In this document: one piece after another, positions 24,246-29,581 of the stretch
Position numbering within the stretch: the first letter of the stretch is position 1
Layout: every line of letters begins with the position of its first letter
NCBI GenBank assembly: GCA_947494995.1
Contig: CANLWY010000008.1
Span: forward strand, 62,001 to 126,000
Direction: 5' to 3'
Length of the DNA stretch: 64,000 bases
Source of the DNA: an uncultured Campylobacterales bacterium
GTDB taxonomy: Bacteria > Campylobacterota > Campylobacteria > Campylobacterales > Arcobacteraceae
Notes under the pieces: generated by a model
The model's input: the letters and a program-made list of their open reading frames with translations, nothing else
Database searches by the model: none
What the model was told of the DNA's origin: nothing
Program-made: the position numbers and the translations under genes

Positions 24246-25904
24246 TTAGTTTTTAATTATCTTTTTTATTTGATTTCTAATAATAACTGGAACAAAGAAC
24301 ATTGATACTATGTATGAAATTAGTGTTCCTCCAATAAGTGCAACTCCAAGTCCTCCAAATACAGCATCTGTAGCTAAAAGAGAAGATGCAAAGACCATTG
24401 TAAGAACTGTAAGAATAATAGGTTTTGATCTTGTTGCTGTTGCTTTTGCAATTGCTTCATTTATTGTTAGTCCTTTTTCTTGAACTAAAAGTTTTGTAAA
24501 ATCAATAATTAGTGTTGAGTTTCTAGAATTAATTCCAATAAGACCAATAAATCCTATTAATGAAGTTGCTGTTAAATAAAAAGTATCTGCTGTAATCATA
24601 TCCATAATAATATGTGCAAATATTACACCAATAATAGAGATAAAAGAAGCAAGAACAATTCCACCTGAAATAGCAAATGATTTATAATATATAACCATTA
24701 AAAAGAAGATTAAGACTAAAGCAATAATAAATGCTCCTCCTAAGTCTATAAAAGTATCAATTGTTACTTTTAATTCTCCATCCCATATTAGTTTAAATTG
24801 TTCACCTGTAGTTTTATCTGTAAATTCAAGATTTAACATATTAGATTTTTCTACTATAAAGTTTTTATCAAAGTTATTTAGAAAATCGTTTCTTGCATCA
24901 AGAAGAGGATATATTTGACTGTCTTTATTTGTTTCTGCAATCACATTAATCATAGGCTCTAAATTTTTTGATGTAAGTGTTGGTTCTTTTATAACTTTTT
25001 CTATTGTAACTAGTTCACTTAAAGCAATAGTAGAGCCATTTTTATTTACTAGTTTAAGTGTTGATAGTTTATTAATAATATCATCTTTTCTATTTGAGTC
25101 AAAGATTCTTGAATCATCAAGTCTTAAAAAAATTGGTACTTGAGCTTGTGAATTTTTTTCATTTACAACAGAAAGTATAGTTCCTTCGTATGCTATATAT
25201 AGTATATTTTTAACTTGTTCTAATAAAATACCACTTTTGATGATCTTGTTGTTATCAAGACTTATTTCAAATTTTTCAAAAGCCTTATCTGACATTACAT
25301 CAACATCTACAAGAGAATTTTGTTTTTTTAAAACTTTTGCTACTTTATAAGCAAATTCTCGTCTACTTTCAAATGAAGACCCTCCATATATTTCAGCAAC
25401 AATTGAAGCAAGTACAGGAGGACCTGCAGGAAGTTCAATAAGTTTTATATTCGCTTCATATTTTGAACAGCTTTGAAGTTCTTCTCTAATTGAACTAACA
25501 AAATTGTAACTTGAAATATCTCTATTTTTTGCCTTCTTAATATTTACCATTATTTCAGCTTGAGATTGCTTATCTTTTAGGGCACTTTGTTTTACTAAGG
25601 CTGCAAAATCTAAAGGTTGTCCTTCCCCTATAAAGACTGAGATATTTGTTACAAGCTCTTTAGAAATTAGTTTTTTTGAGATGCAAGAAGTAACTTCTTT
25701 TGTTTGAGTTATAGAACTGCCATCTTTTAAATCAACATATACTGAAAAAGTATCAGAGTCTTTACTTGGAAGCATTTTTGCTTTTACAATTTCAGTTGGA
25801 AAAGTAGCTACAGAAAGTGCAAAAAGAGATAGGGTTATTATATATACTAAAATGGATTTAGAAGGTGATTGAATAATATTATAAATAAATTTTTCTAGTT
25901 TCAT
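24246..25904 (-). CDS. RND efflux pump, C-terminal half
   Basis: 552 residues corresponding to the second repeat of an RND transporter: a membrane segment at about 17-36 (TM7), a large periplasmic porter domain to about residue 385, and five further membrane segments. The proton-relay region reads IGLIGINSRNSTLIIDF, with Arg where HAE pumps have Lys. It starts with its own ATG, overlapping the stop of the N-terminal half as ATGA, and AAGGAAG lies nine bases upstream. Together the halves (513 + 552) equal a normal RND protein. Whether they assemble as two polypeptides or are joined by frameshifting is discussed under findings. Confidence 0.88.
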   Translation of the reverse strand: MKLEKFIYNIIQSPSKSILVYIITLSLFALSVATFPTEIVKAKMLPSKDSDTFSVYVDLKDGSSITQTKEVTSCISKKLISKELVTNISVFIGEGQPLDFAALVKQSALKDKQSQAEIMVNIKKAKNRDISSYNFVSSIREELQSCSKYEANIKLIELPAGPPVLASIVAEIYGGSSFESRREFAYKVAKVLKKQNSLVDVDVMSDKAFEKFEISLDNNKIIKSGILLEQVKNILYIAYEGTILSVVNEKNSQAQVPIFLRLDDSRIFDSNRKDDIINKLSTLKLVNKNGSTIALSELVTIEKVIKEPTLTSKNLEPMINVIAETNKDSQIYPLLDARNDFLNNFDKNFIVEKSNMLNLEFTDKTTGEQFKLIWDGELKVTIDTFIDLGGAFIIALVLIFFLMVIYYKSFAISGGIVLASFISIIGVIFAHIIMDMITADTFYLTATSLIGFIGLIGINSRNSTLIIDFTKLLVQEKGLTINEAIAKATATRSKPIILTVLTMVFASSLLATDAVFGGLGVALIGGTLISYIVSMFFVPVIIRNQIKKIIKN

Positions 25905-27442
25905 TTTAAAAACTTCCTTACTAAATATGGTGTAAAAATATATGCAACAATTAAAGATACAATAAGTGCAATAGGTACAAATACGGGAAGAGGATGCATG
26001 AATTGTCCCATCATTCCACCTACAAAAAACATGGGAATAAATGTCATAATAATAGCTATTGTTGCAATATTTGTTGCATTTCCTATTTCATTTGTTGCAT
26101 TTATTGAAAGTGTTTTTATATCTGTTTTTCCTTTATCTTCTTTTTTATGTCTTACAATATTTTCAATTACGATAATTGCTGCATCTACGAGCATTCCTAA
26201 GGATACAATGAGAGCAAAAAGAGTAATTCTATTAATAGTCTCTTCCATCATAAACCCTATAAATAAAGTAAGAGATAAAATCATGGGAACAAGAAGTGAA
26301 ACTATCATAGCTTCTCTAAGACCTAAAGAAAAAATAAGTAAAATAGCAATAATTACAATAGAAATCAGTAAATTTTGTACAAGTGAATTTACAGCATTAT
26401 TAGCTGTATATCCATCATCTCTTGTTATTACTAGTTTTATATTTTTCTTCTCAAGATTAGGTTTTATAGTTTCTATATAGTCAAAAATTTTTTCATTTAT
26501 TGTAACTGAATTTGAACCTTTTAATTTTGAAATAGTTAGTGTCAACTGTTCTGTAGCATTATTTAACTCTTTTGTATATAAAAGAGCTTCTTTTTTGTTT
26601 TGAATGTCATAAGATCTTGAAATTTTAGCAATATCTTTTAAGTATATTGGTGTATTGAAATTATATGAAATGATGATATTTTCTAAATCTTCTTTAGATT
26701 CAATTGCATTTTTAATACTTAATACTGTCAAATTAGCATTTTTGTTATCTGAATTTATATTTGGAGTAGTTAATGATAAAGCTTTTATTTGCTTTGCTAT
26801 TTGACCTATTGATAGTTTATATGCACTTAGTTTATTTGCATCAACCTCAATGTTATATTGTTCTTTTTTTTCACCTTTTAAATCTACTAAAGCTACATTT
26901 TTAATTTTGTTTATTTGAAATGCAATTTTATCAACTTCATTATAAAGTGTTGTTTGTGATATTTTGTTTTGAATTGTATAAAAAGCAATAGTTGCAATAG
27001 GAATATCTGTATCAATATCCATTGTTTTGATAACTGGAGTCATAGCTCCTTTAGGAAGTAAATCCATATTTCTCATTACTTGATTATATAGTTTAAGATT
27101 TGATTCTTCTTTATCTTCTCCAATATAATATTGAACTTGAACTATAGCAATAGACTCTTTTGCATAAGAATATATATGTTCAACACCTTCTATTTCATGT
27201 ATTTTCTTTTCTAATGGTTCTATAATAACTTTTTTTATTTGACTAGGACGTGCTCCAGGAAGGGCTACAATAACTGCTCCCCCACTAACTTTTATTTGAG
27301 GATTTTCCTCTCTAGGCATAAATTCTAAAGATAAGATCCCCAAAGCTAAAATAAAAAGTGAAAGAATAAAAGTAAGAGGATGGTCTATGAATGTTCGAGC
27401 AAGTTTACCTGCAATATTCATTTGATTTGGATTATTTATCAC
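25901..27442 (-). CDS. RND efflux pump, N-terminal half
   Basis: 513 residues with the first repeat of an RND pump: TM1 (about 24-42), the periplasmic PN1/PC1 region (including GARPSQIKKVIIEPLE), and TM2-TM6 up to the end. The TM4 relay is LVDAAIIVIEN, with one Asp followed by Ala as in heavy-metal-type RND proteins rather than DD as in multidrug pumps, so the substrate class is open. It stops right after TM6 with the sequence RKFLK. The start is a GTG at 27442 overlapping the adaptor stop codon (GTGA), with AAGG eight bases upstream. Confidence 0.88.
   Translation of the reverse strand: MINNPNQMNIAGKLARTFIDHPLTFILSLFILALGILSLEFMPREENPQIKVSGGAVIVALPGARPSQIKKVIIEPLEKKIHEIEGVEHIYSYAKESIAIVQVQYYIGEDKEESNLKLYNQVMRNMDLLPKGAMTPVIKTMDIDTDIPIATIAFYTIQNKISQTTLYNEVDKIAFQINKIKNVALVDLKGEKKEQYNIEVDANKLSAYKLSIGQIAKQIKALSLTTPNINSDNKNANLTVLSIKNAIESKEDLENIIISYNFNTPIYLKDIAKISRSYDIQNKKEALLYTKELNNATEQLTLTISKLKGSNSVTINEKIFDYIETIKPNLEKKNIKLVITRDDGYTANNAVNSLVQNLLISIVIIAILLIFSLGLREAMIVSLLVPMILSLTLFIGFMMEETINRITLFALIVSLGMLVDAAIIVIENIVRHKKEDKGKTDIKTLSINATNEIGNATNIATIAIIMTFIPMFFVGGMMGQFMHPLPVFVPIALIVSLIVAYIFTPYLVRKFLK
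25904..25910 (-). other. Candidate -1 frameshift heptamer at the RND split
   Basis: On the minus strand the bases read T TTA AAA in the frame of the N-terminal half, directly before its TGA stop. This fits the X XXY YYZ form. A -1 slip here continues exactly into the frame, and onto the ATG, of the C-terminal half. No stimulatory structure was demonstrated; an SD-like AAGGAAG sits just upstream. Confidence 0.35.
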
Positions 27443-28230
27443 TTATCAAGCCTTAAATTGATTTTTGTGTACATTCCAGGATATATCTTTTTATCTTTAG
27501 TATCAAAAGATAACTTTAGTGTAAAAGAGTGTGTCATATCTTGTAAACTTGGAATTATTGATGCAATCTTACCTACAGTTTGTAAATTTGCAGATTTAAT
27601 ACTTATATCTGCATCTTGTCCAATTTTTATTTTTACTAAATTACTTTCACTAATAGTTGTTTTTATTTTTAAGCTATTTAAATCAGAAAGAATAATTGCA
27701 GGAGTTGAAGGCATTGCCATTTCACCAGATTTGATACTCTTTTTGATAATTAAACCATCATTAGGTGCTACAATTTTTAGATAATTGTATTGGTAATTAA
27801 CCTCTTTTAATTTAGCACGTGCAATTGATATCATATTTTTAATATTTTTTAATTTTAATTCTAATTGTTCAACATCATATTTAGGAACTAAATCCTTTAG
27901 ATATAATCTTTTATATCTTTCAAGATTTGTTTTTACATTGTTTAGATTATTTTGTTGAATTTGAAGGTTTAATTGAGCCTCTTGTCTGTTTGAATCAATA
28001 CTTGAAGAATCAATTTCATAAAGAAGTTGACCTTTTTTTACAAAATCTCCTTCATTTACGTATACATTTTTGATAAATCCCATATATCTACTTGTAATAA
28101 TTTTTTCATTATCTGATATTACTGTTCCACTTAATTCAAGTGCATTTATTGAGATTGCACTTGTAAGTGTAATTAATAGTGTAATTAAATATTTTTTACC
28201 TGTAAACAGGATTTCACGTTGTTTCATCAT
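27439..28230 (-). CDS. RND periplasmic adaptor (membrane-fusion protein)
   Basis: A 263-residue adaptor of the HlyD/AcrA family linking the RND pump to the TolC channel. It has an N-terminal signal or anchor (about 12-30), a biotinyl-lipoyl half-motif GFIKNVYVNEGDFVKKGQLLY near residue 50, a coiled-coil hairpin (about 72-140) and the second lipoyl half IVAPNDGLIIKKSIKSGEMA. It is shorter than AcrA and seems to lack part of the membrane-proximal domain. Its stop overlaps the pump start by four bases and it begins one base after the TolC-family gene. Confidence 0.9.
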   Translation of the reverse strand: MMKQREILFTGKKYLITLLITLTSAISINALELSGTVISDNEKIITSRYMGFIKNVYVNEGDFVKKGQLLYEIDSSSIDSNRQEAQLNLQIQQNNLNNVKTNLERYKRLYLKDLVPKYDVEQLELKLKNIKNMISIARAKLKEVNYQYNYLKIVAPNDGLIIKKSIKSGEMAMPSTPAIILSDLNSLKIKTTISESNLVKIKIGQDADISIKSANLQTVGKIASIIPSLQDMTHSFTLKLSFDTKDKKIYPGMYTKINLRLDK

Positions 28231-28231
28231 T

Positions 28232-29581
28232 TTATTTCCTTAAGCTTTTTCCAGTTACAAGTTTTAATCTTGCCTGAGCTAATGATTTTTCATAGTTTGC
28301 CATAATTAAAGATGCTTCATTTTCTCTATATATTGCTTCTTGTTTAAGAAGTTCAGTCATTGGTATTAGTTGATTTTTATACATTAGTTTTGATTGTTCT
28401 AAAACCTCATATGCTAGTTCTTTCGCTTCTTTTTTTTCTTTAAAGATTCTATTTTTTGCATATAAGTTTAGATAGGTTTTTTCAATCTCTAGTTTTATCC
28501 CATCTTTTAATTGGTTTAGATTTAAAATTGCTTTATTTAGTTTTATTTGACTTTTCTGTAAATCTTTACTTCTTGTTCCATTAAATAAAGAGTATTTAAT
28601 TCCTAACATTCCTATATAGTAATCTTTGTCACTGTCAAAAGTTATTGAGTCATCATTAAATCCATACTCTAAATGAGAATAGACATTTGGATAATATGAT
28701 GATTTTACTAAATCAATATTTTTTTTCATTCCTTTTTTTGAGAATTCAAGTATTTTCAAGTCTTCTCTATTTGTCAAAGCTTTACTATATAGTTCTTCTA
28801 AGCTTATATTAGAAGCTGAGAAAAGCTTTAGGCTTTCAACATCATTTATTTTCATATTTGAGGTCAAAAACTTTAAATAGGCTAAAGCAATATTGAATTT
28901 ATTATTAGCTTCTGTTAGTCTTGATTGTACATTTAGTTCTTGTACTCTTGCTTGTTTTTTATCAATTTTTGTAACAAGACCTTCTTTATGAAATTCTTGA
29001 GCTGAAATAACAAAAAAAGAAACAGCTTCTTTAGCTTTTTTTGTAGCATTAATGAATTCTTTAGCGACAACTGCTGCATTGTATGCTTTTAGAACTTCAA
29101 ATTCTAAAGATTTTTCATCAAGATTTAGCTTTAAAGTCTGAGCCTTGTGCTGTATTTTTAATATATCTTCTTGGCTTTTTAGTTTAAAACCAGTAAATAA
29201 AGGTATATCATAGGTGATTTTAGTAGTGAAGTTATTCCTTGCTTCCGCATTGTTTAGGTTTTTTGGTTCAATATTTAAACTATTTGGTCCAGTATATTCA
29301 CCCGCCCCAAAATCATTAAAACTAGCCTCTCTTGAAGATAATTTTGAGTTAAAAATATGACCACTATGATTTGTTCTACTCATTTCATAACTTAAATTTA
29401 GCTCTCCATATGAAAAAGCTTTAATCTTTTCAATATCAAGTTTAGAAGATTCAATTTCAAGTTTTTGTGTTTTTAGTTTTTTATTGTTTTTTATAGTTAA
29501 ATCTAATGCAACTTCATAGTTGATTGTTTGTGAAAAAGAAAAAGAAAAAACTAATAATAAATATAAGATTATTTTATACAT
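28232..29581 (-). CDS. TolC-family outer-membrane efflux channel
   Basis: A 449-residue outer-membrane efflux protein. It has a signal peptide (about 1-17, ending SFSQ) and two OEP repeats of long helices: the first from about residue 22 and the second from about residue 240 (LEELYSKALTNREDLKILEFSKKG). It is first in the efflux operon, followed by adaptor and the two pump genes; all junctions overlap or are nearly flush, so one transcript is likely. Substrate unknown. Confidence 0.9.
   Translation of the reverse strand: MYKIILYLLLVFSFSFSQTINYEVALDLTIKNNKKLKTQKLEIESSKLDIEKIKAFSYGELNLSYEMSRTNHSGHIFNSKLSSREASFNDFGAGEYTGPNSLNIEPKNLNNAEARNNFTTKITYDIPLFTGFKLKSQEDILKIQHKAQTLKLNLDEKSLEFEVLKAYNAAVVAKEFINATKKAKEAVSFFVISAQEFHKEGLVTKIDKKQARVQELNVQSRLTEANNKFNIALAYLKFLTSNMKINDVESLKLFSASNISLEELYSKALTNREDLKILEFSKKGMKKNIDLVKSSYYPNVYSHLEYGFNDDSITFDSDKDYYIGMLGIKYSLFNGTRSKDLQKSQIKLNKAILNLNQLKDGIKLEIEKTYLNLYAKNRIFKEKKEAKELAYEVLEQSKLMYKNQLIPMTELLKQEAIYRENEASLIMANYEKSLAQARLKLVTGKSLRK

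Follow-up and report, generated by a model that had tools for sequence, protein, structure and literature searches.

The 64,000-nucleotide stretch of DNA analyzed here, called the window in the following, carries an RND permease gene that has been permanently divided at the linker joining TM6 to TM7. The division took place once, in an ancestor within the Campylobacterota, and the two halves are very probably co-translated subunits of one RND unit. That the pump is divided between TM6 and TM7, with the two frames overlapping as ATGA, was noted in a first-pass annotation and agrees with both the sequence and the Pfam ACR_tran coordinates.

The operon and the two halves of the permease

The window has a GC content of 28% and comes from a genome of 3.17 Mb, the nearest named relatives of which are Arcobacteraceae, e.g., Malaciobacter halophilus. 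Read directly from the sequence, the operon lies on the minus strand, which the first-pass annotation did not give. The order of the genes is TolC-like channel, HlyD-type adaptor, RND N-half and RND C-half, and neighboring genes are separated by 1 nt or share 4 nt (Table 1). A TolC-like gene is found upstream in many other split loci too. The N-half starts with a GTG at 27442, which overlaps the stop codon of the adaptor gene as GTGA, and ends with a TGA at 25903-25901; the C-half starts with the ATG at 25904-25902 and stops at 24246.

Table 1. Features of the operon and of the junction between the permease halves (positions in the window).
Feature	Position	Strand	Evidence
TolC-like outer-membrane channel, 449 aa, first gene of the operon	28232..29581	-	Pfam OEP 3.4e-45
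Periplasmic adaptor (MFP), 263 aa, stops after the beta-barrel	27439..28230	-	HlyD_D23 5e-28
RND permease N-half, 513 aa: TM1, PN/DN periplasmic domain, TM2-6	25901..27442	-	ACR_tran 2-491/1021, 1e-79
RND permease C-half, 552 aa: TM7, PC/DC periplasmic domain, TM8-12	24246..25904	-	ACR_tran 518-1016/1021, 1.8e-39
ATGA stop-start overlap of N-half and C-half	25901..25904	-	sequence; gap of -4 in 13/89 split junctions
AAGGAAG, Shine-Dalgarno-like, within the 3' end of the N-half gene, 8 nt ahead of the C-half ATG	25913..25919	-	sequence
TTTAAAA heptamer (T TTA AAA)	25904..25910	-	sequence; -1 frame is the C-half frame

Together the two halves cover the ACR_tran profile almost completely, and the limits of the two matches place the break on the cytoplasmic side, in the TM6-TM7 linker, a position which is also backed by AlphaFold models and Foldseek. 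The single-chain models have a pLDDT of 81.9 (N-half) and 84.7 (C-half), and each aligns with the equivalent half of AcrB-type pumps, the N-half finding AdeJ, AcrD, and AcrB and the C-half AcrB and CmeB, with a probability of 1.00 and TMq of ~0.7-0.77. An RND permease is usually recognized as a single chain of ~1000 residues with 12 TM helices; here two ORFs of 513 and 552 aa are found and conserved instead, which makes the pair a two-gene variant of the RND permease. The half-length genes fall below all NCBIfam permease cut-offs. Membership of the SecD/SecF family was considered and rejected, because the N-half scores only 23.5 bits against the SecDF profile (cut-off 723) and AcrB-type permeases give the top matches in both NCBIfam and Pfam.

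The charged positions of the proton relay, which we take to be the equivalents of D407, K940, and R971 in AcrB numbering, are conserved and shared out between the halves, the Asp in TM4 belonging to the N-half and the basic residues in TM10 and TM11 to the C-half. The Asp is present in 93/93 split rows, and the K940-like position is Arg in all 90 readable ones. At the R971-like position 88 of the 90 readable split rows have Lys, whereas 47 of the 53 readable one-ORF rows have Arg. In the window this position is residue 494 of the C-half, and the substitution to Lys tracks the split clade.

Distribution of split and one-ORF pumps

The first-pass annotation proposed a comparison with orthologues, and in this comparison the split proved to be conserved in the genus. 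A search with the N-half found an orthologue in all 16 genomes, each an open frame of 509-526 aa, the 15 others being 79-88% identical to that of the window; the paralogous RND pumps of the same genomes are nearly all single ORFs of ~1000 aa or more. In the family an N-half homologue was found in 87/104 genomes, and all full-length matches are 509-550 aa. In the order the numbers are 275/399 genomes and, among the matches listed, open frames of 509-572 aa; single ORFs (1023-1238 aa) appear only among the more distant matches. In all, ~93 loci across Campylobacterota were examined, and in these the C-half lies directly downstream of the N-half. The conserved split itself, unlike the heptamer at the junction, is far beyond chance.

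A scan of named genomes found split pairs in Sulfurimonas, Sulfuricurvum, Sulfurovum, Sulfurospirillum, Nitratiruptor, Malaciobacter, and others, all of them Campylobacterota or MAGs close to them. Plasmids of Sulfuricurvum kujiense (pSULKU01) and Sulfurovum mangrovi carry both genes, each under the annotation "efflux RND transporter permease subunit". One-ORF homologues were found in Thiomicrorhabdus, Hydrogenovibrio, Mariprofundus, Thiomonas, Nitratidesulfovibrio, Aquificaceae, and others. The one-ORF homologues (L066-L077, L119-L165) are the nearest relatives of both halves and stand in the same type of operon; they differ from the window pair in having a single ORF of ~1000-1350 aa and an adaptor that is longer by 68 aa or more. 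The identity of the N-half to them is 39-49% in Campylobacterota and 32-41% elsewhere.

Three single loci may be mentioned. One genome (G107) holds both a split pair (L061) and a one-ORF homologue (L076), so the two forms coexist there as paralogues or xenologues. An N-half homologue at G420:C4:2806-4314 has five TGA and one TAA codons inside the frame, which could reflect decay of the copy, a MAG of poor quality or recoding of the genome. In a Terriglobia MAG, outside Campylobacterota, the N and C matches lie in two different long ORFs (L153), which could be explained by two tandem genes, by an error in the MAG or by a break that arose independently.

Origin and age of the fission

A first tree comprises 79 proteins, the two halves of each split pair being joined end to end; in it all 46 split pairs fall into one clade (SH-aLRT 100), and a single change accounts for the label "split". 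A mixture-model tree of 41 rows gives the split clade with 100/100 support, and it was recovered in 200/200 bootstrap trees. The single-ORF forms of Campylobacterota are the sister group of the split clade and rooting leaves single ORFs outside it, so that the split form is the derived one. None of the sampled loci showed a re-fusion. Many independent breaks were considered and rejected, since both trees need only one change. Judged from these sequence comparisons the fission is an old and not a recent event, which arose once in an ancestor within Campylobacterota.

At first sight the junction in the window looks like the work of an indel: the offset is one base, the frames overlap, and one-ORF homologues exist. 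It could then be argued that a recent indel, a pseudogene, or a sequencing or assembly error has broken an ordinary single-ORF pump in one strain. This explanation has next to no chance of being right. The pump is split in every one of the 16 genus genomes and in all full-length matches from the family, the split junctions occur with three different frame offsets, and the split pairs form the single clade described above. The dN/dS values between the window and its congeners are ~0.09-0.12 for the N-half and 0.11-0.21 for the C-half; both halves are therefore under purifying selection, and decay was rejected on these values. The first-pass annotation had doubted a recent single-base deletion, rightly so, because the congeners are all split and in different frame offsets.

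Junctions: frameshift or second start

The first-pass annotation drew attention to the T TTA AAA at the end of the N-half, with a -1 frame which is that of the second half, and to the AAGGAAG ahead of the second ATG. Both are present in the sequence, the heptamer being read at 25910-25904. Two options had been offered, separate synthesis of the halves or fusion of a fraction of the product by programmed -1 frameshifting at the heptamer into a permease of ~1064 residues. The form and frame of the heptamer are right for such a fusion, the stop codon is adjacent, and an SD-like motif lies just upstream.

The relatives speak against the fusion option. The heptamer TTTAAAA was found at the junction in the window species only and in no relative examined, including the congeners that are 79-88% identical; these typically have TTT TTA TAA, a short gap of a few bases and then ATG. 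Over 89 distinct split junctions the gap between the halves ranges from -14 to +11, and the second gene has the frame offset 0 (that is, behind a stop), +1 or -1 in 24, 10, and 55 cases, respectively. This leaves 34/89 junctions (0 or +1) which cannot be joined by a -1 shift, and any slippery heptamer in the usable overlap is present in 4 of the 55 junctions with offset -1 (4/89 overall).

Nor does the heptamer stand out from its surroundings. In the 54 genes of the 64-kb window with its 28% GC, from which alone the background was taken, there are 293 in-frame heptamers of the form XXXYYYZ (Y = A/T), 40 of which are TTTAAAA, and 48/54 genes have at least one; so the heptamer at the junction is no more than expected by chance. 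A stimulatory RNA structure was looked for in 105 nt surrounding and following the heptamer, which fold no better than shuffled sequences (z = +0.68). Neither of the dnaX-like hallmarks, a conserved slippery heptamer with the -1 frame kept and a stimulatory downstream structure, was found. A programmed frameshift (FRAMESHIFTING) as a conserved mechanism is rejected on the offsets, on the absence of the heptamer in the relatives examined, on its chance-level frequency in the window and on a fold no better than that of shuffled RNA. That it fuses some of the product in the window species is very unlikely; there may be a weak, low-level frameshift restricted to this species, and most likely TTTAAAA arose by chance in a gene end rich in A and T.

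Separate synthesis is the option that stood. An SD-like match of at least 4 nt precedes the second start in 84/89 junctions compared with 12% of internal ATGs, a difference which is somewhat inflated as the choice of start favors an SD. With a split found Campylobacterota-wide, an SD-like motif as the usual state and purifying selection on both halves, the sequence data strongly support that the two halves are made as separate proteins.

The short adaptor

The adaptor of the window matches TIGR01730 over 15-246/322 with 135 bits (cut-off 94.9), and its barrel-sandwich/lipoyl domain, hairpin and beta-barrel are present (HlyD_D23, HlyD_3, TIGR01730). In all 77 split loci with an adjacent adaptor the protein ends within -3 to +7 aa of the end of the window's, right after the beta-barrel, an association which counts as one co-occurrence and not as 77 because the fission happened once. 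In the alignment the adaptors of 49/49 one-ORF loci, 11 of them from Campylobacterota, run 68-146 aa further. What the adaptors of the split systems are missing and those of the one-ORF systems have kept is the C-terminal membrane-proximal domain of ~70-75 aa, identified by homology to TIGR01730 and by the description in a review; the assessment covers the C-terminal part of the domain.

The membrane-proximal domain is described as a core domain of all RND-associated adaptors and as essential for assembly and function of AcrAB-TolC, and as absent from adaptors whose transporters have no periplasmic domains (PMC8277102). As the split permease keeps its periplasmic domains, its adaptor breaks this rule. 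The EmrA-type (MFS) and DevB-type adaptors share the absence of the domain (PMC8277102; PMC4158417 for EmrA); they differ in serving MFS or MacB-like ABC transporters and not an RND permease with full periplasmic domains.

Some split pairs stand without adjacent adaptor and channel genes (L098, L102, L108, L117, L118, L143). The pair on pSULKU01 of S. kujiense (L167) has neither adaptor nor channel adjacent and lies behind a gene for a TetR-family regulator; upstream of the pairs L098 and L108 there is a histone-deacetylase-like gene. In G107 a long adaptor accompanies the one-ORF copy and none was found in the stretch examined around the split copy.

A proposed two-subunit RND pump

We propose separate translation of the two halves through coupled termination-reinitiation; each would insert into the membrane as six TM helices with both ends in the cytoplasm. 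One N-half and one C-half would pair into a heterodimeric RND unit, and three such heterodimers would form the pump together with the TolC-like channel and the shortened adaptor. The adaptor would then need to dock on the permease through its beta-barrel, because its C-terminal membrane-proximal domain is missing. Both the heterodimer and the trimer of heterodimers are predictions from the genes. The identities of N-half and C-half to those of the window correlate with r = 0.987 over 94 split loci, and this co-variation and the constant adjacency argue for an obligate pair.

One could also imagine that the halves are separate proteins with no joint RND unit, each forming homo-oligomers, or one of them having taken another job. 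The complex is a prediction, and the pairs without adaptor or channel genes would fit such a division. We hold it to be most improbable, as the two genes are adjacent, tightly spaced and co-varying, the relay residues are divided between the halves with each of them conserved, and the folds match the corresponding halves of AcrB-type pumps.

Relation to known systems

The window system shares with the tripartite RND pumps of the HAE/HME type (AcrAB-TolC, MdtABC, CusBA) the ACR_tran sequence and fold, the Asp in TM4, the charged residues in TM10 and TM11, and an operon with an HlyD-type adaptor and a TolC-like channel. It differs from them by the permease being two genes cut at TM6/TM7 and by the adaptor without the C-terminal membrane-proximal domain. 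The usual description of an RND exporter is a single chain that contains both repeats, and SecD/SecF is a heterodimer of 2 x 6 TM within the RND superfamily (PMC8277102). SecD/SecF thus has in common with the window pair the two half-size subunits of 6 TM and is a mechanistic precedent, but it is Sec-associated and works without adaptor or outer-membrane channel, whereas the pair in the window belongs to an ACR_tran family of tripartite pumps. For Aliarcobacter butzleri, the portion of the published description drawn on here gives the RND systems AreABC, AreDEF, and AreGHI one inner-membrane protein gene each. In the open-access literature we found no description of split ACR_tran pumps and only SecD/SecF as a precedent, which does not prove that none exists.

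The split systems probably constitute a distinct class of tripartite RND exporters typical of Campylobacterota. Its members would be trimers of N/C heterodimers, with 2 x 6 TM in each unit, and would have adaptors devoid of the C-terminal membrane-proximal domain; docking and activation would be unlike those of AcrAB-TolC, and the domain loss and the fission would both date to one ancestral branch. In Campylobacterota, half-length RND genes lying next to each other should not be labeled frameshifted pseudogenes. The system is a natural split-protein experiment in a tripartite pump, maintained across the phylum together with a rule-breaking adaptor, and it offers a natural setting in which to ask what the covalent link between the two repeats and the membrane-proximal domain are for.
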